Shown here piece after piece: positions 44,668 to 59,565 of a DNA stretch of 64,000 nt; positions within the stretch are counted from its first letter, which is position 1, and each line of letters starts with the position of its first letter. Source of the DNA: Pirellulales bacterium (GTDB lineage Bacteria > Planctomycetota > Planctomycetia > Pirellulales > Thermoguttaceae); contig JAFGRD010000039.1 of NCBI GenBank assembly GCA_016935315.1, positions 62,001 to 126,000 on the forward strand, read 5' to 3'. The position numbers and the translations under genes were made by a program. Below the pieces are notes generated by a model that searched no databases, was not told the DNA's origin, and saw nothing but the letters and a program-made list of their open reading frames with translations.

Positions 44668-44811
44668 GGGTAGGAAGCGGGGCCTTGCTTTCAGCCGCGG
44701 CCAGCGACTCCGCGGGGGCGCGGCTTCGCTGCGGTCTTTCGCACAGTAGTCTTGGGGAGTATCATGGGAGCCGGCCTTCTCCGCAAGGAGGGATGGAAGA
44801 AAGGGCACACG

Positions 44812-47800
44812 ATGATACGGGGAGAAAACACTGTGACGAAGCGTCTATCCCAAAACGCCTCGCCCCCGGTGCCACTCTCCGCAGGCGGGGCGATCGGAGA
44901 ACATTTTCGAATACGCGGCAGGAAAACGACGTGGATAATCTGTCTCTGTGCTCTCGGAGTGCTTGGTCAAGTCTTGGCCTTCGGCCCGAGAGGACTGGCC
45001 GCCGATCCGGAACAGGCACGCCAGATTCTCGCGGCCAGCGGCGTCCAGGGCGGGCTGATCGTTCATCTCGGCTGCGGCGACGGCAGCTTGACAGCCGCGT
45101 TGCACGCGAGCGATAGCTACCTGGTCCACGGCCTGGACGCCCAGCAGGCCAACGTCGATCAGGCCCGCCGCAATTTGCAGGCGAGAGGACTCTACGGCCC
45201 GGTGTCGGTCGAGCAGCATAGCGGCACCCGGCTGCCTTACGCCGACAACCTCGTGAATCTGGTCGTCGCCGAAGATCTTGGCGGCGTGGCCATGGACGAG
45301 GTCCTACGCGTGCTTGTGCCCGATGGCGTGGCTTACTTGAAACGCGACGGGAAGTGGACCAGAAGCGTCAAGCCCCGTCCGGCCGAGATCGACGAATGGA
45401 CGCACTATCTGCACGACCCCAGCAATAACGCGGTAGCCCGCGACACGGTGGTCGGCCCACCGCGCCGGCTGCAATGGACCTGCGGTCCCGACTGGTCGCG
45501 GCACCACGACCACATGGCCAGCCTCAGCGCCCTGGTTTCGGCCCATGGCCGGATCTTCTACATTATGGACGAAGGGCCCCGAGAGGCGATCCTGTTGCCG
45601 GCCCACTGGATGTTGATCGCTCGGGACGCCTTCAACGGAACGATCCTCTGGAAGCGGCCGATCGCTGAATGGAACACGCACCTCTGGCCGCTGAAGAGCG
45701 GTCCCAACCAGCTTCCTCGCCGCCTGGTGGCCGTGGGCGATCGCGTCTACGCCACGCTGGGCATCGACGCCCCGCTCAGCGCGCTGGACGCCGCCACCGG
45801 CGCGACGATCCGGACCTATGCCGCCACGGAGCACACGGACGAGGTGCTCGTCTCCGACGGCGTGCTGTTTCTTTTGGTCGCCGAATCGCCCAACAAGTGG
45901 AAGGAATATCGTCCGGCGTCGACCTACGTCTGGGACAACACCCGGCGCGCCAACAGCGAGTGGGCCTGGGACCAGGCAACTCGCCACGTGATGGCCGTCC
46001 AGGCCGATACGGGCACGGTGCTGTGGGACAAGGAGCGTCGTGTGGCCCCGCTGACCCTGGCCGTCGACGGCGAGCGGGTGTTCTTCTACGACGGCGAGAG
46101 GGTCGTCTGTCTCGATCGCACCGACGGCGACGAGCTCTGGGGGTCCGAGCCGGTGCCGCGAAAGTCGCCGTTTCCCACCGGCTACGGTCCGACGCTCGTT
46201 GTCCAGCAGGGCGTCGTCCTGCTATCGGTCGAGAATCGATCGATGCACGCGTTTTCGGCGGTCGACGGCGAGACGTTGTGGGCCGCCCCGCATCATCGCG
46301 GCGGGCACATGTCTCCCGACGATATGCTGGTCATCGACGGGCTGGTGTGGTCGGGCGCCGTGGCCAACGGCGCGGACTCGGGCGTCTTCACGGGCCGCGA
46401 CGTGCAGACGGGCGAGGTGAAGAGCGAGTTTCCGCCCGACGTGAATCCGCCCTGGTTCCATCATCGCTGTTATCGCAGCCGCGCCACGGACAAGTACTTC
46501 ATCGCCTCCCGCACCGGCACGGAGTTCATCGACTTGAAGGCGGAGCACTGGGACATCAACCACTGGGTCCGTGGCGGTTGCCTTTACGGATTCATGCCCT
46601 GCAACGGTCTGATCTACGCCCCGCCGAATTCCTGCGGCTGTTTCCTCGAATCGAAGCTCTTCGGGTTCAGTGCGCTGGCGCCGCAGCCAAACGGCGGGCC
46701 GATGCCGCAGGAGGTTTCCGACGACGCCCGATTGCAGCGGGGCCCTCTCTACGGCGTGCCGTTGGGAGAGCCGGCTTCCACGGGCGTCGACCAGTGGCCC
46801 ACCTACCGCCACGACGCCCTGCGGAGCGGATCCGTGAAGAGTTCGGTGCCCACCGATCTGAAACGCGTGTGGCAGGCCGATCTGGACGGGAAGCTCAGCA
46901 GCGTCGTCGTGGCCGGCGGCAAGGTCTTCGTGGCCGCCGTCGACGCACACACCGTGCATGTCCTGGATGCGGACTCGGGGAAGCCGGCCTGGAGCTACAC
47001 GGTCGGCGGTCGCGTCGATTCGCCTCCCACGATCCACCGGGGCCGCGTCTTGTTCGGCTCGGCGGACGGTTGGGTGTATTGCCTTCGCGCCGAGGACGGG
47101 GGACTCGTTTGGCGTTTCCGCGCCGTCCCCGACGACCGGCGGGTGATCGCCTACGAGCAGCTCGAATCGGCCTGGCCGGTCTCCGGCAGCGTGCTCGTGC
47201 ACGACGACGTCGTCTACTGCGTGGCCGGCCGATCGGCGTTCCTCGACGGGGGCATGCGGCTGGTGCGGCTTGACCCGAAGACCGGCCGCAAGCTGTCGGA
47301 AACCGTGCTCGACGAGCGCGACCCCGAGACCGGCGAGAACCTGCAGAGCAAGATGCTGGGACAGGACATGCCCGTGGCCCTGCCCGACATCCTCTCGTGC
47401 GACGGCCGGTCGGTGTATATGCGGTCCCAGGCGTTCGACTTGCAGGGGGTCCGTCGCAACGTCGCGCCGGTGAAGCTCAGCCTGCTGCTGCGCCGCCGCG
47501 GCAACGCCGGCGCAGAAGACGACGAGTTGACGGAAGTCGACGACCACCTGTTCTCCCGCTCGGGTTTTCTCGACGATTCCTGGTTTTTCCGCTCCTACTG
47601 GATCTACGGCAAGGCTGTGGACAGCAACTACGGTGGGTGGCTCCGCCCGGGACACTTTGCACCATCCGGCCGCCTGATGGTCTTTGACGATACCTGCGTC
47701 TACGGCTTCGACCGCAAGCCAGAATACTTGTGCAACGCCTCCGTGCAGGAGTACTATCTCTACCGTGCCGATCGCGAGGTAAGCGACGAGTCGATCAGGC

Positions 47801-48846
47801 GGGTCCAGGCCGCCACCGGCCGAATCAACGCCGCTTCACCCCAGAAGAGTGCCTCGTCGTCCGATTGGGCAACCCGGAAGAAGTTCTCCCTGACGGACCA
47901 GAGCGTCGCCGCCTTCAGGTGGGCCAACGCCTATCCACCGATCCAGGCGCGGGCCATGGTCCTGGCCGACGAGACGCTTTTCGTGGCCGGTCCGCCCGAC
48001 GTCGTCAACGAAGAGGAAGCCTTCCGAAATCCAATCGATCCGGCGATCCGGGCCAGACTCGAGGCCCAGGCCGCCGCGCTACAAGGCCGCCTGGGTGGGC
48101 AGATGTTGGTCGTCTCGGCCGCCGACGGCAACGTGTTGAGGGCCTGGGAACTCGGCGCCACGCCGACCTTCGACGGCATGGCCGCGGCCGGCGGCAGGCT
48201 GTACCTGACGACCGTCGACGGCGCGGTGCTCTGCCTGGGCGGCGAAGGGACCCCGCTGCCTGAAGCCGAGGAAGTCAAGCTGGAGGCCCTCGACGTCGGC
48301 GTCAAGCCGCCCCCCCCCGAGCCCAAGCTCGAATCGGGCCCGTCGCTTAAGGGAGATTTCGCCAAAGTCGTGCGGGCGCAAGTCACGGGTTCCCAATTGG
48401 GCTATCGCGTGGGCGCCGGTGGCAAGCGATCGGCCATGGCGGTGAAGAAGCTGCCGACACCGCTGCGAGGGAAGGTCCACTTGAAGGGCCGGCTGCAATG
48501 CGCGCCTGGCGGGCAATTGAAGAACGGTTTCCTGGTCTTCGGCGACACGGCGGACGAAGCCGGCCTGGTGAAATGCGGCCTGCGATTCAAGATGCAGAAG
48601 GCTGTCATTGTCGAGGGCCCGTTTGACGAAGGTAAGACGGTGGAGGAGGACGTCAAGCTGGACGAGGCGAAGGTCTACGAAGCGGACGTGACCGTCGAGT
48701 TGGCCACCGGCCAGGTCACCATGAAGGCCGGCGGGGTAACGGTGACCGCCACGTTGGACCGTTGCCCCAAAGAGATCTCGTACGTCGGCTATGCCGTTCT
48801 GAACACAATCACAGATTTCACTCTGGTGGAGATATCCGGCGATTGA
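44812..48846 (+). CDS. Large exported protein: methyltransferase-fold domain plus PQQ-like propeller
   Basis: 1,344 residues from ATG 44812 (AAAGGG 6 nt upstream). GTG 44833 with GGGGAG 8 nt upstream is an equally good start. A membrane helix or signal (about 37-60: TTWIICLCALGVLGQVLA) comes after a long n-region. Then comes a class I methyltransferase-like domain (about 65-170): VHLGCGDGSLTAAL as motif I, GLDAQQANVDQARRNL, and a late EVLRVLVPDGVAYL. The rest is a large quinoprotein-like propeller in two parts, with a split around residue 650 (DQWPTYRHDALRSGSVK), and a C-terminal beta-sandwich (about 1180-1344). If the signal works, the methyltransferase fold lies outside the cytosol, where SAM is not expected. 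Confidence 0.82.
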   Translation: MIRGENTVTKRLSQNASPPVPLSAGGAIGEHFRIRGRKTTWIICLCALGVLGQVLAFGPRGLAADPEQARQILAASGVQGGLIVHLGCGDGSLTAALHASDSYLVHGLDAQQANVDQARRNLQARGLYGPVSVEQHSGTRLPYADNLVNLVVAEDLGGVAMDEVLRVLVPDGVAYLKRDGKWTRSVKPRPAEIDEWTHYLHDPSNNAVARDTVVGPPRRLQWTCGPDWSRHHDHMASLSALVSAHGRIFYIMDEGPREAILLPAHWMLIARDAFNGTILWKRPIAEWNTHLWPLKSGPNQLPRRLVAVGDRVYATLGIDAPLSALDAATGATIRTYAATEHTDEVLVSDGVLFLLVAESPNKWKEYRPASTYVWDNTRRANSEWAWDQATRHVMAVQADTGTVLWDKERRVAPLTLAVDGERVFFYDGERVVCLDRTDGDELWGSEPVPRKSPFPTGYGPTLVVQQGVVLLSVENRSMHAFSAVDGETLWAAPHHRGGHMSPDDMLVIDGLVWSGAVANGADSGVFTGRDVQTGEVKSEFPPDVNPPWFHHRCYRSRATDKYFIASRTGTEFIDLKAEHWDINHWVRGGCLYGFMPCNGLIYAPPNSCGCFLESKLFGFSALAPQPNGGPMPQEVSDDARLQRGPLYGVPLGEPASTGVDQWPTYRHDALRSGSVKSSVPTDLKRVWQADLDGKLSSVVVAGGKVFVAAVDAHTVHVLDADSGKPAWSYTVGGRVDSPPTIHRGRVLFGSADGWVYCLRAEDGGLVWRFRAVPDDRRVIAYEQLESAWPVSGSVLVHDDVVYCVAGRSAFLDGGMRLVRLDPKTGRKLSETVLDERDPETGENLQSKMLGQDMPVALPDILSCDGRSVYMRSQAFDLQGVRRNVAPVKLSLLLRRRGNAGAEDDELTEVDDHLFSRSGFLDDSWFFRSYWIYGKAVDSNYGGWLRPGHFAPSGRLMVFDDTCVYGFDRKPEYLCNASVQEYYLYRADREVSDESIRRVQAATGRINAASPQKSASSSDWATRKKFSLTDQSVAAFRWANAYPPIQARAMVLADETLFVAGPPDVVNEEEAFRNPIDPAIRARLEAQAAALQGRLGGQMLVVSAADGNVLRAWELGATPTFDGMAAAGGRLYLTTVDGAVLCLGGEGTPLPEAEEVKLEALDVGVKPPPPEPKLESGPSLKGDFAKVVRAQVTGSQLGYRVGAGGKRSAMAVKKLPTPLRGKVHLKGRLQCAPGGQLKNGFLVFGDTADEAGLVKCGLRFKMQKAVIVEGPFDEGKTVEEDVKLDEAKVYEADVTVELATGQVTMKAGGVTVTATLDRCPKEISYVGYAVLNTITDFTLVEISGD

Positions 48847-50823: not shown

Positions 50824-52152
50824 ATGAATCAGGAGGACTCCGTCTCGCGACGCCAGTTTGTCGCCGGTGCCTCCAGTCTGCTGTTGGCGGGTGCGGCGGC
50901 GAGAGCCGCTGAAAAGACCGGTTCCAGCCAAGGTTCTCAGCTTGCTGTGCACGGCGGTGAAAAGGCCGTCAAGAGGGTGCCTGCTTCGCAACGTCGCTGG
51001 GGGGAAGTGGAACGCAAGCAGCTCGAGGCGATGCTCCAGCAGAACTCGCTCTTTTACTGGCAGGGACCGCAGACCGAACTGCTCATAGAACGGTTTCGGG
51101 AGGTCTGCCCGGTCGAGTACGTGCAGACCTGCTCCTCAGGCACCGCCGCGATTCACACTGCCGTGGCCGCGGCCGGCATCGGACTGGGCGATGAGGTGAT
51201 CACCTCGCCCGTCACGGATATCGGGACCGTGATCGGGGTCCTGTACCAGCAGGCCGTGCCCGTATTTGCCGACTTGGGCAAGGGCACACACAATCTCGAC
51301 CCGGCCGACGTCGCGCGACGGATTACGCCGAAGACCAAGGCGATCATCGCGGTCCATTTGACGGGCAACCCCTGCGATCTGGACGTGCTGAAGACCTTGG
51401 CTGACCGCCACAAGCTGGTTCTGATCGAAGACTGCTGCCAGGCGTGGGGGGCGAAGACCCGCGGCCGGCCGATCGGCACCGTGGGAGACATCGCGTGTTT
51501 CTCGCTCCAAAACTCGAAGCACGTGACCTGCGGCGACGGCGGCTTGGTCGGCTCCAACGACGAGCGTTTCGGACCCCTGTTGCAGAAGTTCGGCGACAAG
51601 GGTGGCAACCGGCGCAAGTGGGGCGGGTTCGACGCGTTCGCCACCAACTACCGCATGAGCGAGCCGCAGGCCGCCGTGGCAGCCGCCCAACTCACGCGCC
51701 TGGAGGAGATCGTCACGAAACGCAACCGCCTGGGCACCCTGCTGACGGAGAACATCGCGGACGCTCCCGGCATCATCCCGCACGAGGTGCACCCGGAGGA
51801 CCGCGCTGTCTATTGGTTCTACTTCTTCCGCCTGCGTCCTGAGGCCTTTCGCTGCGGACGCTCGGAGTTCGTCAAGGCGCTTCTGGCCGAAGGCGCGGGT
51901 GTGCGGGGAGGATACATCGGCGTGCCGCTCTATGGCGAACCCGTCTTCCAGAACCACGGCTTCTTCGCCGGCCGCTGGCCCGTCAAGGAAATGGGCCTTA
52001 CCACCATGGATTTCACTAAACACAAGTGTCCCAACGCGGAGTCCATGCTGACCGAAGGTATCCGCGTACCGATCTACGAGTACATGACGGAGGACTACAT
52101 TCTTGACGTGGCGGCGGCCATCCAGAAGGTAGCCCGCCACTACGCGGCGTAA
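50824..52152 (+). CDS. Tat-exported DegT/DnrJ-type PLP aminotransferase, copy 1
   Basis: 442 residues. The N-terminus is a Tat signal: SRRQFVAG followed by a hydrophobic stretch and cut near A-R-A-A (about 29). The rest is a complete DegT fold: SSGTAAIHTAV (cofactor pocket), IEDCCQAWGA (PLP Asp) and FSLQNSKHVTCGDGG with Schiff-base Lys232. It should be catalytically competent, but outside the cytosol, where family members are not classically described. Tat export of a folded, PLP-loaded enzyme is plausible. It is followed by two paralogs. The substrate is unknown; a keto-sugar or keto-cyclitol is likely from the family. Confidence 0.87.
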   Translation: MNQEDSVSRRQFVAGASSLLLAGAAARAAEKTGSSQGSQLAVHGGEKAVKRVPASQRRWGEVERKQLEAMLQQNSLFYWQGPQTELLIERFREVCPVEYVQTCSSGTAAIHTAVAAAGIGLGDEVITSPVTDIGTVIGVLYQQAVPVFADLGKGTHNLDPADVARRITPKTKAIIAVHLTGNPCDLDVLKTLADRHKLVLIEDCCQAWGAKTRGRPIGTVGDIACFSLQNSKHVTCGDGGLVGSNDERFGPLLQKFGDKGGNRRKWGGFDAFATNYRMSEPQAAVAAAQLTRLEEIVTKRNRLGTLLTENIADAPGIIPHEVHPEDRAVYWFYFFRLRPEAFRCGRSEFVKALLAEGAGVRGGYIGVPLYGEPVFQNHGFFAGRWPVKEMGLTTMDFTKHKCPNAESMLTEGIRVPIYEYMTEDYILDVAAAIQKVARHYAA

Positions 52153-52408: not shown

Positions 52409-53776
52409 ATGAATGAGCCGATTAAGAGCCGTCGTGAGTTCCTGGCAACCGTTGGCGTCGCGGGCGCCGCTTCGGTGCTGGTGGGTTCCAGCGAGGCTCG
52501 CCGGGGCTTTGCCGCCGAGGGCCAGCAGAAGCTTGCCATCGACGGGGGGACTCCCGTACGAAAGACCCTGCTGAGCTCGAGCCCCTACGGGCCCCAGTTC
52601 TACGACGAGGTCGAGAAGCGCGAAATCCTCGAGGTTATTGAGTCGAGAAAGCCTTTCCGCTGGTGGAAGGGCGGCTCCAAGGTCCTCCAGTTCGAGGAGG
52701 CGTACGCGGCCCACATCGGTGTGAAGTACGCCCTCGGAGTGACCTCGGGAACGACGGCCCTGTCCGCCGCCTTGGCAGCGCTGGAAATCGGGCCCGGTGA
52801 CGAGGTCATTCTCCCCGCTTGGACCTGGTACGCCGATTACGATACGGTCGTCCTGGCGGGAGCGCTGCCAGTCTTCGCCGAGATCGACAGCTCGCTCAAT
52901 ATCGATCCTGAGGATATCGAGGCGAGAATCACGCCCCGCACCAAGGCGATCATCGCCGTCAGCCTTCAGGGATGCCCGGCCGACATGGGCCCGATCCTCG
53001 AAATCGCGCGGAAGCACAAGCTCCGTGTCTTGGAGGACTTCTCCCAATGCGTGGGAGGGCGTTATGAGGGGAAGTACCTGGGCTCGATGGGCGATATCGG
53101 CATCAGCAGCTTCCAGCAGAGCAAGACCATCACGGCGGGTGAGGGCGGCGCCGTGGTCACCAACGACCCGATGCTCTTCGAGCGAGCCGTGCGCGCCCAC
53201 GACGTCGGCGCCCTCCGCTCTCCCTACAGGGAAGGCCTTGGCGGCGGGCAACTCCCGGGGTTCGCGGCGTCCAACTTCCGCATGAACGAATTCACCGGCG
53301 CAATCCTCAAAGCACAGGAGCAGGACCTCGAAACCATCTGCAAGGCCGTTCGGAGCAACGCCCGGAAGGTCCGCGACGGCATTGCCGGCCTGCCGGGGCT
53401 GAGAATGCGGAAAACGCCGGACCTCGAGGGGGATTTGGGCGTAACCGTCTTCCTCGACCACGGCACCCGCCAACGACGCGACCGGTTCCTGCGTGCGTTG
53501 CGGGCTGAGGGGATCTCGGCCTCGTCGCCGGGCGGCTCGGTGATTCTGCCGATCGACGAGCGGGTTGAGAACAAGGTCACCGTCCACCCCGATTGGCCTT
53601 CCTTCAACACTCCTCAGGGCAGGGCCATCCGCTACGGGCGCGAGTGCTGCCCGAAGACGATCGACATCCAGGGACGCCTGGGTGGCGTGATCATGGACCC
53701 CAACTTCACCAATGACGACGTCGCAGACATCGTCCGGGCCATCCGTAAGGTCTATTTGGCCATGGGCGCAGCGTAG
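52409..53776 (+). CDS. Tat-exported DegT/DnrJ-type PLP aminotransferase, copy 2
   Basis: 455 residues. Tat signal KSRREFLATVGVAGAAS, cut near S-E-A-R (about 30). The catalytic part has TSGTTALSAAL, VLEDFSQCVGG and SSFQQSKTITAGEGG with Lys239. The S-F-Q-Q-S-K...GEGG form resembles aminotransferases that act on inositol-derived or AHBA-type ring ketones more than common nucleotide-sugar enzymes; this is by eye only. GAGAGG precedes the ATG. It differs clearly from copies 1 and 3, so the three are not recent duplicates. It would act in the periplasm on an unknown keto substrate. Confidence 0.87.
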   Translation: MNEPIKSRREFLATVGVAGAASVLVGSSEARRGFAAEGQQKLAIDGGTPVRKTLLSSSPYGPQFYDEVEKREILEVIESRKPFRWWKGGSKVLQFEEAYAAHIGVKYALGVTSGTTALSAALAALEIGPGDEVILPAWTWYADYDTVVLAGALPVFAEIDSSLNIDPEDIEARITPRTKAIIAVSLQGCPADMGPILEIARKHKLRVLEDFSQCVGGRYEGKYLGSMGDIGISSFQQSKTITAGEGGAVVTNDPMLFERAVRAHDVGALRSPYREGLGGGQLPGFAASNFRMNEFTGAILKAQEQDLETICKAVRSNARKVRDGIAGLPGLRMRKTPDLEGDLGVTVFLDHGTRQRRDRFLRALRAEGISASSPGGSVILPIDERVENKVTVHPDWPSFNTPQGRAIRYGRECCPKTIDIQGRLGGVIMDPNFTNDDVADIVRAIRKVYLAMGAA

Positions 53777-54003: not shown

Positions 54004-55353
54004 ATGAAAAACGATTTGACACGACGTGCATTTGTCCGCAACGCAGCGGCTGGTTCTGCCGCACTGACCTGGCTGGGTGCCGGCCGAGCGCCGACGGTCT
54101 TCGCCGCCGAGGCCAACAAACCGGCTCTGCTCGGAGGCACGCCGGTGCACAAGGGCGGCTGGCCCAAGTGGCCCCAATGGGACGAGTCGTGGGAGCCCGA
54201 AATCGTCGATGTCCTCCGTAGTGGGCGGTGGTGCTCTTCCGGCAGCGGCGGGCGCGCCGCGGAGTTCGAGGAAGCCTACGCGAAACTGCTCGGCGCCAAG
54301 GGTTGCGTTTCCACGGCCAGCGGCACCACCGCGCTGCTCACCGCCCTGCACGTGACGGGCGTCGACGCCGGCGATGAGGTGATCACCTCGCCCTACACGT
54401 TCATCGCCACGTACAACGTTTGCCTGATGCACCGGACCCTGCCGGTGTTCGCCGACACGGACCCGGCCACGCTGACCATGGACCCGGCTTCCATCGAAAG
54501 CCGCATCACCGACCGCACCCGCGCCATCTTGCCGGTGCACATTTACGGCATGCCGTGCGACATGGACCCGATCAACGCGATCGCCAAGAAGCACGACCTC
54601 GCCGTCGTTGAGGACGCCTGCCAGGCGTGGCTGGGCGAGTACCAGGGCCAGAAGTGCGGCACGCTGGGCGACCTGGGCTGCTTCAGCTTCCAGAACTCCA
54701 AACACATCCCCGTCGGCGACGGCGGCGCCATCACCGGCAACAACCAGGAACTCCTGGACCGTTGCTGGTCGTACCACAACTGCGGCCGCGCCCACGGCAC
54801 CTTCAAGGGGAGCGGCTCGTTCAGCCGCGGCACCAACTTCCGCATGATGCACTACGCGGCCGCCTTGCTCCACCAAGAGATCGACAAGCTGGTCACGGAT
54901 ACCAAGCGGCGGCAAGAAAACGCCGACTATCTGACGGCCGGTTTGAGGGAGATCCCGGGCGTTGAGCCGGTGCGTTTGCCGGAGAACAGCCGGGCGGTTT
55001 GGCACCTGTTCGCGTTCCGGTACGACGCCAACCAGTTCCACGGCCTCTCGCGCGGAAAGTTCATGGCGGCCCTCCGCGCCGAAGGCGTCCCCTGCGGCGG
55101 CGGTTATCACGAGCAGTATTACGACGGCCTGCTCGACGAGGCGATCGCCTCGCGCGGCTTCCAGCGCCTGTTCTCCGCCGAGCGGCTCAAGGCCTATCGC
55201 GACAGCCTCGAAGAGCTCAAAGGCAATAAGCAAGTCTGCGCGACGACCGTCGCCGTGTTCCAGACTCTGCTCCTGGCCGACCGCAGCGACATGGATCACA
55301 TCCTCGAAGCGATCCGCAAGATCCACGCTCACAGCGCCGCGCTGGTGACGTGA
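54004..55353 (+). CDS. Tat-exported DegT/DnrJ-type PLP aminotransferase, copy 3
   Basis: 449 residues. Tat signal LTRRAFVRNAAAGSAAL, cut near V-F-A-A (about 34). Conserved parts are ASGTTALLTAL, TSPYTFIATYN, VVEDACQAWLG and FSFQNSKHIPVGDGG with Lys233. It is closest to copy 1 in the lysine motif (NSKH) and keeps every residue expected for transamination. GAGAGG lies upstream of the ATG. The oxidoreductase gene starts 97 nt downstream with a strong ribosome site, suggesting cotranscription. A dehydrogenase and an aminotransferase side by side would fit oxidation of a sugar or cyclitol hydroxyl and amination of the ketone. Confidence 0.88.
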   Translation: MKNDLTRRAFVRNAAAGSAALTWLGAGRAPTVFAAEANKPALLGGTPVHKGGWPKWPQWDESWEPEIVDVLRSGRWCSSGSGGRAAEFEEAYAKLLGAKGCVSTASGTTALLTALHVTGVDAGDEVITSPYTFIATYNVCLMHRTLPVFADTDPATLTMDPASIESRITDRTRAILPVHIYGMPCDMDPINAIAKKHDLAVVEDACQAWLGEYQGQKCGTLGDLGCFSFQNSKHIPVGDGGAITGNNQELLDRCWSYHNCGRAHGTFKGSGSFSRGTNFRMMHYAAALLHQEIDKLVTDTKRRQENADYLTAGLREIPGVEPVRLPENSRAVWHLFAFRYDANQFHGLSRGKFMAALRAEGVPCGGGYHEQYYDGLLDEAIASRGFQRLFSAERLKAYRDSLEELKGNKQVCATTVAVFQTLLLADRSDMDHILEAIRKIHAHSAALVT

Positions 55354-55450: not shown

Positions 55451-56893
55451 ATGACAGTTGCCCGAAGGGTCTCGCGGCGCCGACTGCTACGACAGGCGCT
55501 GGGTGCGGGGATCAGTTTGCCTCTGTTTGTTTCCTGTCGGAAGGAGCCGATACCGGGCTCGGCCGGGCCTCCGCCACGGGTTCCCGAGCCCTCCTCGGAC
55601 GACGAACCGGCTGCCGGCCCCAACGACCAGGTCGGCGTGGGGATCATCGGCTGTGGGCGGCGCAACGGACAACTGGCCATCGGAAAGGGCGGGCAGGGGA
55701 AGATGCCCAAGTATGCCCGCATTGTGGCCGTCGCCGATTTCAACAAGAAACGGGCCGGCCAATGGGCGGCCAAGTACGAGTGCCCGGCGTTCCAGGACTA
55801 CCGCAAACTCCTGGAACGCAAGGACGTGGACGTCGTGATCTACGCTACCCCCGAGCACTGGCACTACCTGCCCTGCATCCACGCGTGCCAGGCGGGTAAG
55901 GACATCTACGGCGAACAGCCGCTCTCGCACACGATCCGCGAGGGTCGCGTCATGGCCGACGCGGTCCGCAAATACAAGCGCGTGTTCCAGACCGGCGAGC
56001 AGCAGCGATCTCACCCGCTGACGCGCAAGGCCGTGGAGTTGATCCTCAACGGGCGGATCGGCAAGGTGCACACGGTCATCGGCTACAACTATCCCAGCCC
56101 TTATGAGTGCAACTTTCCCGCCCAGCCGATTCCCGAGTGGCTGGACTGGGACCGGTGGTGCGGGCCGAACGAACTGGTGCCCTACCATACCGACCTCTAT
56201 CTGTCGCGGATTCCCTATGTCCGCGAGAAGTACCCGGCCCAGCCGGCGGAAAAACATGCGGTCGGGCCGGGGTGGATGTCGTTCCGACCCTATTCGGGCG
56301 GCGAGCTGGCCAACTGGGGATGTCACGGACTGAGCATGGTCCAATGGGCGCTGGGGATGGACAAGAGCGGTCCGGTCGAGGTTTGGGTCGACCCCGCCGA
56401 GAAGCTCCAGGAGGTGGTCTACGACAACCCGGAGAATCGCGATCGCGGCGATAACATCGCCAGCAGACCGATCATCAACTGCAAGTATGCCAACGGCGTC
56501 GTGCTGACACTCAGCGGGACCGACAGCCGGCTGGGCGGCGGAGCGACCTTCCTTGGCGAGAAGGGCAAGATCACAGTCTTTCGCGAGGGTTACGAGTGCG
56601 ATCCGGTGGGCCTCGACGAAGACCCGCTCCCGGCCGGCGCGATCCGCGTCTACCGCAACGACCACCACATGGGCAATTTCTTCAGGTGCGTGCATTCGCG
56701 CAAAGACCCGATCATGAACGTGGAAAACGCGCATCGCGTGGCCACCTTGTGCCATCTGGGCAATATCGCCCGCTGGCTGGGACGCCCGCTGAAGTGGGAC
56801 CCGGAAAAGGAGGTCTTTCCCGGAGACGAGGAGGCCAACGGCTATCTCGACATCCCCAGACGCAAGGGCTACGAGTTGCCCGATCAAGTGTAA
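55451..56893 (+). CDS. Tat-exported Gfo/Idh/MocA family oxidoreductase with Lys-to-Gln change
   Basis: 480 residues from ATG 55451 (GGAGG 9 nt upstream). Tat signal SRRRLLRQALGAGISLPLF ends in V-S-C, a possible though imperfect lipobox, so it may be a lipoprotein. A Pro-rich linker (about 32-55) follows. The Rossmann motif is VGIIGCGRRNGQ. In the usual E-K-P motif, where Lys is functional, this protein has GEQPLSHTIREG. The C-terminal half is the beta-sheet domain, with GELANWGCHGLSMVQWALG. By family it is an NAD(P)-dependent sugar dehydrogenase or a retaining glycosidase (GH109-like). The missing lysine leaves catalysis uncertain. Confidence 0.88.
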   Translation: MTVARRVSRRRLLRQALGAGISLPLFVSCRKEPIPGSAGPPPRVPEPSSDDEPAAGPNDQVGVGIIGCGRRNGQLAIGKGGQGKMPKYARIVAVADFNKKRAGQWAAKYECPAFQDYRKLLERKDVDVVIYATPEHWHYLPCIHACQAGKDIYGEQPLSHTIREGRVMADAVRKYKRVFQTGEQQRSHPLTRKAVELILNGRIGKVHTVIGYNYPSPYECNFPAQPIPEWLDWDRWCGPNELVPYHTDLYLSRIPYVREKYPAQPAEKHAVGPGWMSFRPYSGGELANWGCHGLSMVQWALGMDKSGPVEVWVDPAEKLQEVVYDNPENRDRGDNIASRPIINCKYANGVVLTLSGTDSRLGGGATFLGEKGKITVFREGYECDPVGLDEDPLPAGAIRVYRNDHHMGNFFRCVHSRKDPIMNVENAHRVATLCHLGNIARWLGRPLKWDPEKEVFPGDEEANGYLDIPRRKGYELPDQV

Positions 56894-56939: not shown

Positions 56940-57043
56940 CATTGACGCTTGCACACTCAATCCGCGAGGGCGACCAACGGGAGCCCGACGTGTCCGACCT
57001 CCCGTTGGTCGGCCTTGATCATTCACAATGCAGACATCAATAG
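56940..57043 (+). repeat. Palindromic intergenic element, copy 8
   Basis: About 104 bp: CATTGACGCTTGCACACTC, core GCGACCAACGGGAG/CTCCCGTTGGTCGG, right end CAATGCAGACATCAATAG. The final AG forms part of the AGGAG ribosome site of the RidA-like gene, whose ATG is 11 nt beyond. It also opens a false 35-codon extension of that frame. Confidence 0.92.
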
Positions 57044-57053
57044 GAGCAAACGC

Positions 57054-58355
57054 ATGATATGGCGACCTCTCGTATCGGTTGGGCTGGTCGGCTGTTGCCT
57101 CGTGCTGGCCGTTTTCCCGGCCGCCAAGGCCGCGACCGACGATGGCGCCCCCGCGGACGCCCCAGCCGTCGACGACATGCCGGTCCAGGAAACGAACGAG
57201 CCATCGCTCCAGTACGTTGCTCTCGATGCCCCGGCAGGCATGTCGCAGGCCGTGGTGGTCCAGGGGTTTCCGCTGGTGTATACGCGCCAGCTTCTGCCGC
57301 TGGACGGTGAGGGGAAACTCGTGGGCGAAGGCTCGGCCGACGAGCAGATCGAACAGGCCCTGGACAATCTGGAGGCCGTATTGGACGCTGCCGGATCGGG
57401 CCTGGCCCATCTGGTTCGCCTGAACGTCTACGCCCTCTCCCACCAGGCGGCCGACCGCCTGCGTGAGCAATTGACCGGGCGGCTCGACCCGGCCGTGCGC
57501 CCGGCGATGACCGTGGTTCTGACACCCCTTCCACATCGCCAGGCGCTGGTGGCCGTCGATGCGGTCGCTCTGGCTGCCGCGGCTGACCCGGGGTCGGCGC
57601 CCAGGCAGACCTTGGGCCTTCAGCGTGTCGAGGCCGTGGCCGGCGACAGAGACTGCGCCGATGCCGCGGTGCTGCCGCCCGGCGGCGTGGCCTACCTGTC
57701 CGGTCAGCCGGAAAAGGGCGGACTGGCCATGTCGGCCGTTGCCCAGTCGCTGTCCACCCTGCTTGGAAGACTCGAACAGTTGAAGCTCTCGCCGGCCCAG
57801 GTGGTGCAGGTAAAGGTGTTTCTCACCCCGGCCTCGTCGGCCGACGAGGCCCTGCGCGAGGTGAAGAAGCTCTTCCCGGGCCAACTCACTCCGCCGGTGG
57901 TCTTCGCGGAATGGATCGCCTCGGTGCCGGTCGAGATCGAGCTGGTCGCGCAGTTGCCCGCCGCGGGCCAGCCGGCCGAGAACCTCGAACATTACAACCC
58001 ACCCGAGGTCAGACCCTCGCCCGCCTTCAGCCGCGTGGCGCTGGTCCACACCCAGCGGCAAGTTTTCATTTCCGGCCTGTCGGCGCGCGCCGCGGGCGAC
58101 GGCGAGGCCCAGGCCCGCGATGTGTTCGAACAGTTGCAGTCGATCCTGGCCAAGACGGGCAGCGACATGCTCCGTCTGGCCAAGGCCACCTACTATGTGT
58201 CCGACGACGACGGGAGCAGGGGGATCGACATCTTGCGTCGCGAAGCCTTCGACCCGCAGCACCCGCCTGCGGCCTCCAAGGTCACCGTCCACGCCGTGGG
58301 GCAGCCCGACCGCACGCTGACGATCGACGTGATCGCCGTCGGCGCCGGGCAGTAG
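57054..58355 (+). CDS. Exported protein of three fused RidA-like domains, catalytic Arg absent
   Basis: 433 residues from ATG 57054 (AGGAG 7 nt upstream). A signal peptide (MIWRPLVSVGLVGCCLVLAV, cut near A-K-A-A) is followed by three RidA/YjgF-type units at about 40-175, 185-305 and 315-433. Each has the A-x-x-x-L-x-x-L helix and the beta strand ending in (V/I)-x-(A/V)-V-A. RidA is a homotrimer whose sites lie between subunits, so this is a trimer on one chain. The Arg of the P-A-R-S motif, needed for enamine/imine deamination, is replaced by Met (RPAMT), Val (PPVVF) and Ala (PPAAS). It is probably a binding or non-canonical protein. It lies next to exported PLP enzymes, whose reactive products RidA normally clears. 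Confidence 0.85.
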   Translation: MIWRPLVSVGLVGCCLVLAVFPAAKAATDDGAPADAPAVDDMPVQETNEPSLQYVALDAPAGMSQAVVVQGFPLVYTRQLLPLDGEGKLVGEGSADEQIEQALDNLEAVLDAAGSGLAHLVRLNVYALSHQAADRLREQLTGRLDPAVRPAMTVVLTPLPHRQALVAVDAVALAAAADPGSAPRQTLGLQRVEAVAGDRDCADAAVLPPGGVAYLSGQPEKGGLAMSAVAQSLSTLLGRLEQLKLSPAQVVQVKVFLTPASSADEALREVKKLFPGQLTPPVVFAEWIASVPVEIELVAQLPAAGQPAENLEHYNPPEVRPSPAFSRVALVHTQRQVFISGLSARAAGDGEAQARDVFEQLQSILAKTGSDMLRLAKATYYVSDDDGSRGIDILRREAFDPQHPPAASKVTVHAVGQPDRTLTIDVIAVGAGQ

Positions 58356-58395: not shown

Positions 58396-59565
58396 ATGAG
58401 CGAAGCACCGGAATCCTCGCCCGGCAAAGAGGGCGGCGAGAAGGGCGGCAAGAAACGCTCCCGGGCCTGGAGGATTCTCAAGCGGGTCGCCTTGGCCCTT
58501 TGCGTCGCCTTGCTGCTGGTTACCCTGGTCGTTGGCATCGCGGTCAAGGACCACGTGAGGACGCTGTGGTCGCTGCGGCGCATTCCGAACACGAACATGT
58601 ACTGCATGGACTACTACGGCACGTACAACATCCGGGAGATTCGCGAGAACGGGGTCGACGTCACGGATATCGAGGGGAGCCTGATTCGCACGTTCTTTCC
58701 GAGTTTTCTTGTGCCGCTGGCAAACGACGTCGCGGAGTCCACCGAGCCGCAAGCCGTGGCTCGCCCCGATCTCGTCGTTGCACATCGTTGTTCTACGGTG
58801 TCGTTTCGCACCGAAAGCGGCCAGGTCCTCTTCGGCCGCAACTTCGACTGGTCGCACGACTCCTGCCTGATCCTGACGATTCACGGCCGCGACGGGTACT
58901 CATCCGTGGCGGTGCTCGATCTGCACTACCTGGGCCTCGATCAACGCAACCTGGAAGACCTCGGGGTGCTGGAGAAGGTCCGTCTGCTGTTTGCCCCCTA
59001 CCTGGTCATGGACGGCATGAACGAGCACGGCCTGGCCGTCTCGGAGATGGCCTGCAAAGCGGAGGTGAGCTTCGACGACCGCAAGCCGAACGTCAACGAC
59101 TCGCTGGCGATGCGGCTGATGCTCGACTACGCGCGGGACGCGGACGAGGCCGTGGCGCTGCTGCGGGAGTACAACGTCCACTTCGAGGAGATCGCCTGTC
59201 ATTTCATGGTCGCCGACGCCGGCGGCCGCAGCCTGATTGTCGAGTTCGTCGACGGCGAAATGCGCACGCTCCCGGCCGACGACCGCTGGCAAGTCTGCAC
59301 GAACAACACCATGAGCGGGAAGTCGGAAGCGGAGAGGGACGCCGCCTGCGACCGATACCAGCGTGCCTCCGACCGCCTGGTGAAGCTTGGTGATGAAATC
59401 GACTGCGACCGACTGCGGCGGGTGATGGCGTCGATTTCGGCCAAAGACTGGACGATGTGGACGAGCCTCTACAATCTTACCGGCGGGCAGTACCAGGTCG
59501 TCTATCGGCGGCAGTTCGACGCGCCCTACGCGGATCGCCTGGCGGTCGACCGCGGCGGGCCGTGA
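58396..59565 (+). CDS. Membrane-anchored Ntn hydrolase, C45/linear amide C-N hydrolase type
   Basis: 389 residues. A basic cytosolic start and one membrane helix (about 29-50) place the rest outside. The Ntn motif is HRCSTVSF with nucleophile Cys132, then GQVLFGRNFDW and, further on, MDGMNEHGLAVSEM and CTNNTMSG. These match the choloylglycine hydrolase/penicillin acylase V and C45 acyltransferase superfamily, which cleaves linear amides or acyl groups. Maturation would require a cut before Cys132, releasing 131 residues including the anchor unless the halves stay together. GGAGG precedes the ATG. It follows the RidA-like gene by 40 nt and may deacylate an N-acyl amine. Confidence 0.82.
   Translation: MSEAPESSPGKEGGEKGGKKRSRAWRILKRVALALCVALLLVTLVVGIAVKDHVRTLWSLRRIPNTNMYCMDYYGTYNIREIRENGVDVTDIEGSLIRTFFPSFLVPLANDVAESTEPQAVARPDLVVAHRCSTVSFRTESGQVLFGRNFDWSHDSCLILTIHGRDGYSSVAVLDLHYLGLDQRNLEDLGVLEKVRLLFAPYLVMDGMNEHGLAVSEMACKAEVSFDDRKPNVNDSLAMRLMLDYARDADEAVALLREYNVHFEEIACHFMVADAGGRSLIVEFVDGEMRTLPADDRWQVCTNNTMSGKSEAERDAACDRYQRASDRLVKLGDEIDCDRLRRVMASISAKDWTMWTSLYNLTGGQYQVVYRRQFDAPYADRLAVDRGGP

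Follow-up and report, generated by a model that had tools for sequence, protein, structure and literature searches.

As the textbook example of metabolite-damage control, RidA proteins reside in the cytoplasm or in organelles. In the Toblerone cyclic amide hydrolases, such as AtzD and barbiturase, three concatenated units form one chain. According to Niehaus et al. (2015, PMC4433059), proteins termed "3x-RidA", such as EF_0115 of Enterococcus faecalis, carry three fused RidA domains and are presumably covalent trimers, the subfamilies Rid4 to Rid7 lack the critical arginine, and the Arg105Ala exchange almost abolishes imine hydrolysis by RidA. The RutC variant R104A is likewise inactive, and Rid4 to Rid7 proteins, devoid of Arg105, have so far displayed no deaminase activity (PMC8113886). 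Here, we compare with these systems a putatively exported triple-RidA protein from a Pirellulales bacterium and the family to which it belongs.

The triple-RidA gene occupies positions 57054..58355 on the plus strand of the window, that is, the whole stretch of 64,000 nucleotides that was analysed. Its open frame encodes 433 amino acids, and an AGGAG ribosome-binding site was read in the sequence at 57042..57046 (plus strand), 7 bases 5' of the ATG at 57054. The protein belongs to the Rid/YjgF/YER057c/UK114 superfamily (PF01042), whose Pfam profile matches it in three stretches with an E value of 8.6e-31 and 106.9 bits, far above the cut-off of 27.3; all 48 members of alignment A2 also match this profile. 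A score of this size excludes chance, and together with the open frame, the ribosome-binding site, and the AlphaFold model it rules out a frame artefact. Judged by eye, the N-terminus MIWRPLVSVGLVGCCLVLAVFPAAKA (residues 1-26; 57054..57131, plus strand) looks like a Sec signal peptide, and export-like N-termini of the Sec, lipobox, or Tat type were recognized by simple patterns, rather than by a trained predictor, in nearly all family members with a placeable start. This agrees with an earlier note on this DNA, which had assigned a signal peptide to the protein, and we infer a periplasmic location. Just upstream of the gene, at 56954-57036, lies an 83-base, partly palindromic intergenic repeat, present in at least 40 copies of 90-100% identity in the genome; its 15-mer core has 13 matches in the window, against 0.55 expected.

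AlphaFold models of the triple-RidA protein (mean pLDDT 91.8, pTM 0.88; built from 48 family members) and of a Daejeonella relative with 34% identity (pLDDT 92.5, pTM 0.90) both contain three RidA units, each predicted to fold as beta-beta-alpha-beta-alpha-beta-beta. These are unit 1 (residues 61-176; 57234..57581), unit 2 (residues 203-303; 57660..57962), and unit 3 (residues 321-431; 58014..58346), all on the plus strand; in the model of the window protein, the secondary-structure elements of the units span residues 66-173, 204-301, and 328-429. Single RidA chains from the PDB matched the triple-RidA model with Z scores of up to 14.9 (YabJ, on unit 1) and the Daejeonella model with Z scores of up to 16.6. 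Profile comparisons related the units to one another as well, at 1.3e-12 for units 1 and 3, 6.6e-9 for units 1 and 2, and 7.2e-7 for units 2 and 3. The earlier note had read three RidA-like units from the letters, and fewer than three folds, which it had named as an observation that would contradict it, were not seen.

Residues of the RidA trimer interface are kept in all three units across 81 sequences: the equivalent of Glu122 is acidic in every one of them (D169, E296, and D425 in the window protein), and units 1 and 3 carry a basic residue in place of Lys73. In Arabidopsis RidA, the inter-subunit salt bridge is formed by K136 and E182 (PMC4960622). With these interface residues retained, the single chain is likely to be a built-in RidA trimer, as had been proposed. 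An N-terminal beta strand in the model (residues 51-55; 57204..57218, plus strand) appears to complete unit 3, suggestive of ring closure; several single RidA chains align to the model between residues 50 and 432, over 114-116 residues at 1.6-1.8 Å. The VIA comparison of the Daejeonella model listed unit 1 only, and the hint of ring closure did not recur there.

Homologs of the protein form a broad family. When 60 related genomes were searched with this one sequence, 23 gave matches, and 15 sequences spanning the three units made up alignment A1. A wider scan, over 84,980 species genomes, yielded 197 confirmed loci; 80 of them were retrieved for analysis. The members belong to Planctomycetota, Verrucomicrobiota, Bacteroidota (Daejeonella), and Hydrogenedentota, and some scanned loci carry labels of other phyla, perhaps through errors of binning or naming. 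When the individual units were placed in a tree, units 1, 2, and 3 each formed one group across the four phyla (SH-aLRT 88, 98, and 95), which places the triplication before the spread of the family, thus dating the event whose age the earlier note had left to a phylogeny, and rules out a recent triplication. Branches of single RidA proteins in this tree were long, and their placement is unsure. Plasmids as a source of similar proteins were considered and dismissed, with one match only, at 15% coverage.

Three fetched relatives (L116:7926-10025, L101:4851-7235, and L092:7953-9851) carry C-terminal fusions, the fused domains being a 3-keto-disaccharide hydrolase domain (PF06439), a BNR sialidase-like domain, and Sel1 repeats. 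The frame of another relative, 1405 amino acids long, runs on into a region that by eye resembles PVC-type haem proteins.

To map the pockets, we followed six positions of the RidA footprint, Tyr17, Ser30, Asn88, Arg105, Cys107, and Glu120, unit by unit; position 107 is part of the described pocket footprint (PMC6435465), and T167 of Arabidopsis RidA, at this position, touches the ligand carboxylate (PMC4960622). The position of E. coli RidA Arg105 is taken by Met152, Val282, and Ala407 in units 1, 2, and 3, exactly the replacements reported in the earlier note, and neither arginine nor lysine occurs at this site in any unit of the 81 family members. The protein thus lacks the Arg at 105 on which imine hydrolysis by the RidA subfamily, and by Rid1-3, depends. 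The three sites had, however, been regarded as equally dead, and this part of the claim did not hold. Over the 81 sequences, units 1 and 2 reach entropies of 2.1-2.7 bits at the Arg105 and Cys107 sites (in unit 1, neither Met152 nor Val154, at the Cys107 site, is conserved) and lack the aromatic residue of Tyr17. They do retain the inter-subunit contact positions: besides the acidic Glu122 equivalent, Thr or Ser stands at the Ser30 site of nearly all sequences. In unit 3, by contrast, the entropy is 0.0 bits at the Arg105 site and 0.26 bits at the Cys107 site. Within the motif PPAASK (residues 404-409; 58263..58280, plus strand), Ala407 is found at the Arg105 site in 81/81 and Lys409 at the Cys107 site in 78/81 sequences, and unit 3 alone has Phe or Tyr at the Tyr17 site and mostly Asn or Asp at the Asn88 site. 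Arg395 (codon 58236..58238, plus strand), at the RidA Tyr91 site, is invariant (81/81). The alignment places it one helical turn past the Asn88 position, and we infer that it lines the unit 3 pocket; an arginine reaching the pocket from another position, which the earlier note had said would count against its reading, is therefore partly present. Glu120 has the equivalents A167 in unit 1, E294 in unit 2, and T423 in unit 3, where the position is Thr or Val; unit 2 keeps Glu294, Glu296, and Trp287 in 81/81 sequences each.

Conservation in the 80-locus set is inflated, since the scan behind it used the PPAASK and KATY patterns. Alignment A1 alone is free of motif seeding, and its 15 sequences, found by plain similarity with phmmer, all contain PPAASK and have their pockets split in the same way as the 81-sequence set. 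Judged from these alignments, the loss of the arginine is real, yet one site has been rebuilt, in unit 3, while units 1 and 2 drift at the majority of ligand positions.

A classical imine or enamine deaminase in which Arg395 or Lys409 replaces Arg105, clearing 2-aminoacrylate-like compounds formed by exported PLP enzymes encoded nearby, seems very improbable to us. The RidA fold, the basic residues at nearby pocket sites, and the catalytic lysine kept by the adjoining PLP enzymes speak for such an activity; however, DegT enzymes of the operon type are usually sugar aminotransferases and are not known to release 2-aminoacrylate. Thr or Val at the Glu120 position of unit 3 argues against it too, as do the losses of activity in Arg105Ala RidA and R104A RutC cited above.

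The absence of Arg105 from all three units in 81/81 sequences and the lack of deaminase activity in the Rid4 to Rid7 proteins would also suit an exported protein that has lost catalysis and serves for binding or as a scaffold; its unit 3 might bind free PLP/PMP or a sugar that is acidic, sulfated, or phosphorylated, for delivery or for protection of the DegT enzymes. Conserved basic residues in a single pocket fit anion binding, and sulfatase genes lie near several members. On the other hand, PPAASK, Arg395, Tyr380, and Asp425 are strictly conserved along with Glu294 and Trp287, a pattern more typical of catalysis than of loose binding, and no consistent receptor or transporter neighbour was seen. 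We consider this explanation unlikely, and the passive binding or sensing role suggested in the earlier note gained no direct support.

Preceding the triple-RidA gene on the same strand are genes for three DegT-type PLP enzymes (50824..52152, 52409..53776, and 54004..55353), all with the catalytic lysine kept, and for a GFO/IDH/MocA oxidoreductase (55451..56893), a conserved operon partner with GEQP in place of EKP. All four products carry Tat motifs. Exported PLP enzymes beside the triple-RidA protein, as anticipated from this DNA alone, are thus real, and the link recurs in other genomes: DegT and/or GFO genes are found near 28 of the 80 related loci, always on the strand of the triple-RidA gene. 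The order of partners varies, being DegT-GFO-RidA in Pirellulales and RidA-DegT in Daejeonella and some Thermoguttaceae, with DegT directly downstream. The catalytic lysine motif of DegT is intact in 31/31 cases. Where the match covers the full length, operon GFO copies share 67-85% identity with the window GFO, and GEQP is present in 18/18 operon orthologues, versus EKP in all 24 other readable GFO proteins of this genome. Since strong DegT genes number only six in the genome, three of them in the window operon, adjacency to DegT is not explained by abundance; GFO genes, with 92 matches, are plentiful, which makes their adjacency by itself weaker evidence. No DegT or GFO gene was present in the flank examined at 52/80 loci, some of these flanks being short, and both were missing from 24 of the 41 loci with more than 4 kb on both sides. 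DegT and GFO therefore cannot be essential to the function of the family, and with more than half of the long-flank loci lacking both, the role of the triple-RidA protein is probably wider than this operon.

Two further genes of the window are mentioned here for completeness. A C45-family acyltransferase/choloylglycine-hydrolase-like gene (58396-59565, same strand) starts 40 bases downstream of the triple-RidA gene; as a candidate part of the system it was rejected, having been found near 0/80 relatives. Farther upstream, a frame of 1364 amino acids (44752-48846) combines an N-terminal methyltransferase-like domain with BamB/PQQ-type beta-propellers.

Among the relatives, Bacteroidota members have heparinase II/III and SusC/D-like genes nearby, heparinase II/III-like genes accompany members from Daejeonella and Singulisphaera, and ceramidase-like and DUF1501 genes are further neighbours. 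The heparinase-like genes are compatible with a chorismatase-like role for the protein, as an enol-ether hydrolase or an isomerase of enol or unsaturated sugars, e.g., products of polysaccharide lyases. For both models, the best PDB matches over the full length are the FkbO/Hyg5 chorismatases (4BPS, 5A3K, and 5AG3), which have RidA-like units in one chain, and the genome encodes two chorismatase-like multi-RidA proteins. Nevertheless, the FkbO/Hyg5 chorismatase profile TIGR04444 did not match the triple-RidA protein even at E 10, and the window operon contains no lyase gene. Superposition of the whole chain on the chorismatases was poor (TM 0.23, rmsd 17 Å), so that the global arrangement of the units gains no confirmation from a known pseudo-trimer. 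On balance, such an activity appears quite improbable. The two multi-RidA proteins just mentioned (L002:499-1854 on contig C25 and L005:418-1842 on contig C11; 451 and 474 amino acids) are FkbO/Hyg5-like with 61 and 172 bits, the cut-off being 325.

We favor an exported, covalent RidA pseudo-trimer in which a single specialised pocket works on an intermediate of exported sugar chemistry, be it a carbonyl, an imine, or an enol, and we give this interpretation about even prospects. The computations show the fold, the three units, the absence of the arginine from each site, the uneven conservation, and the recurring operon, whereas the chemistry is a proposal. The three folds of the chain would assemble in the manner of the RidA homotrimer, presumably with compact closure, units 1 and 2 serving mainly as structural partners. 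The active pocket would be centred on unit 3, with Arg105/Cys107 exchanged for Ala407/Lys409 and Arg395 gained, and Lys409 and Arg395 might take over the anion binding or acid-base work of Arg105. The carbohydrate intermediate that this pocket would most likely bind and turn over, a carbonyl, imine/enamine, or enol compound, would be produced outside the cytoplasm by the Tat-exported GFO/IDH/MocA and DegT-type PLP enzymes of the operon. Because one pocket is conserved and many relatives adjoin exported sugar-modifying enzymes, the protein probably performs an as-yet-unassigned step of sugar chemistry outside the cytoplasm; the PF06439 and BNR sialidase-like fusions and the heparinase II/III and SusC/D-like neighbours form the sugar context of the family. 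It is possible, although rather doubtful, that this is a new exported single-chain Rid family whose composite Ala/Lys/Arg pocket carries out a new non-deaminase step with the Tat-exported, cofactor-carrying DegT and GFO enzymes; oxidised sugars, for example, might undergo lysine-based carbonyl or enamine chemistry there. The broad exported family, the unequal pockets, and the recurring DegT/GFO partners and fusions go beyond the earlier note. A widespread exported branch that dropped the arginine but froze another pocket would extend the functions of the RidA family. The Tat-exported DegT and GFO enzymes with which planctomycete genomes are filled would then have a defined partner. Having a single asymmetric pocket makes the hypothesis easily testable.

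Neither a three-unit RidA protein nor the loss of the arginine is new alone, both having been published. Our literature search returned no paper on an exported RidA family with DegT and MocA partners in planctomycetes. The Toblerone hydrolases are among the best full-length PDB matches by fold, but their whole-chain superposition is poor, a sequence-level match to the triple-RidA protein was not found, and their chemistry differs. With 3x-RidA proteins, the family shares three RidA units in one chain, evident from Pfam, both models, and the unit profiles. A compact covalent trimer may be formed as well: the models (pTM 0.88 and 0.90) and the kept interface residues fit it, but a whole-chain superposition was not obtained. 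In the available portion of PMC4433059, 3x-RidA is described as a subset of RidA, and export, arginine loss, a specialised pocket, and a DegT/GFO operon are not part of that description; the distinction is drawn from the description. Rid4 to Rid7 resemble the triple-RidA protein in having the RidA fold without Arg105. However, they are single-domain proteins with Trp (Rid4 and Rid7) or variable residues (Rid5 and Rid6) at the Arg105 site and with Glu120 kept, whereas the triple-RidA protein combines Ala at 105 and Lys at 107 in unit 3 with Glu120 in unit 2 only. The triple-RidA family is absent from the papers searched, assembled from known parts, and well conserved.
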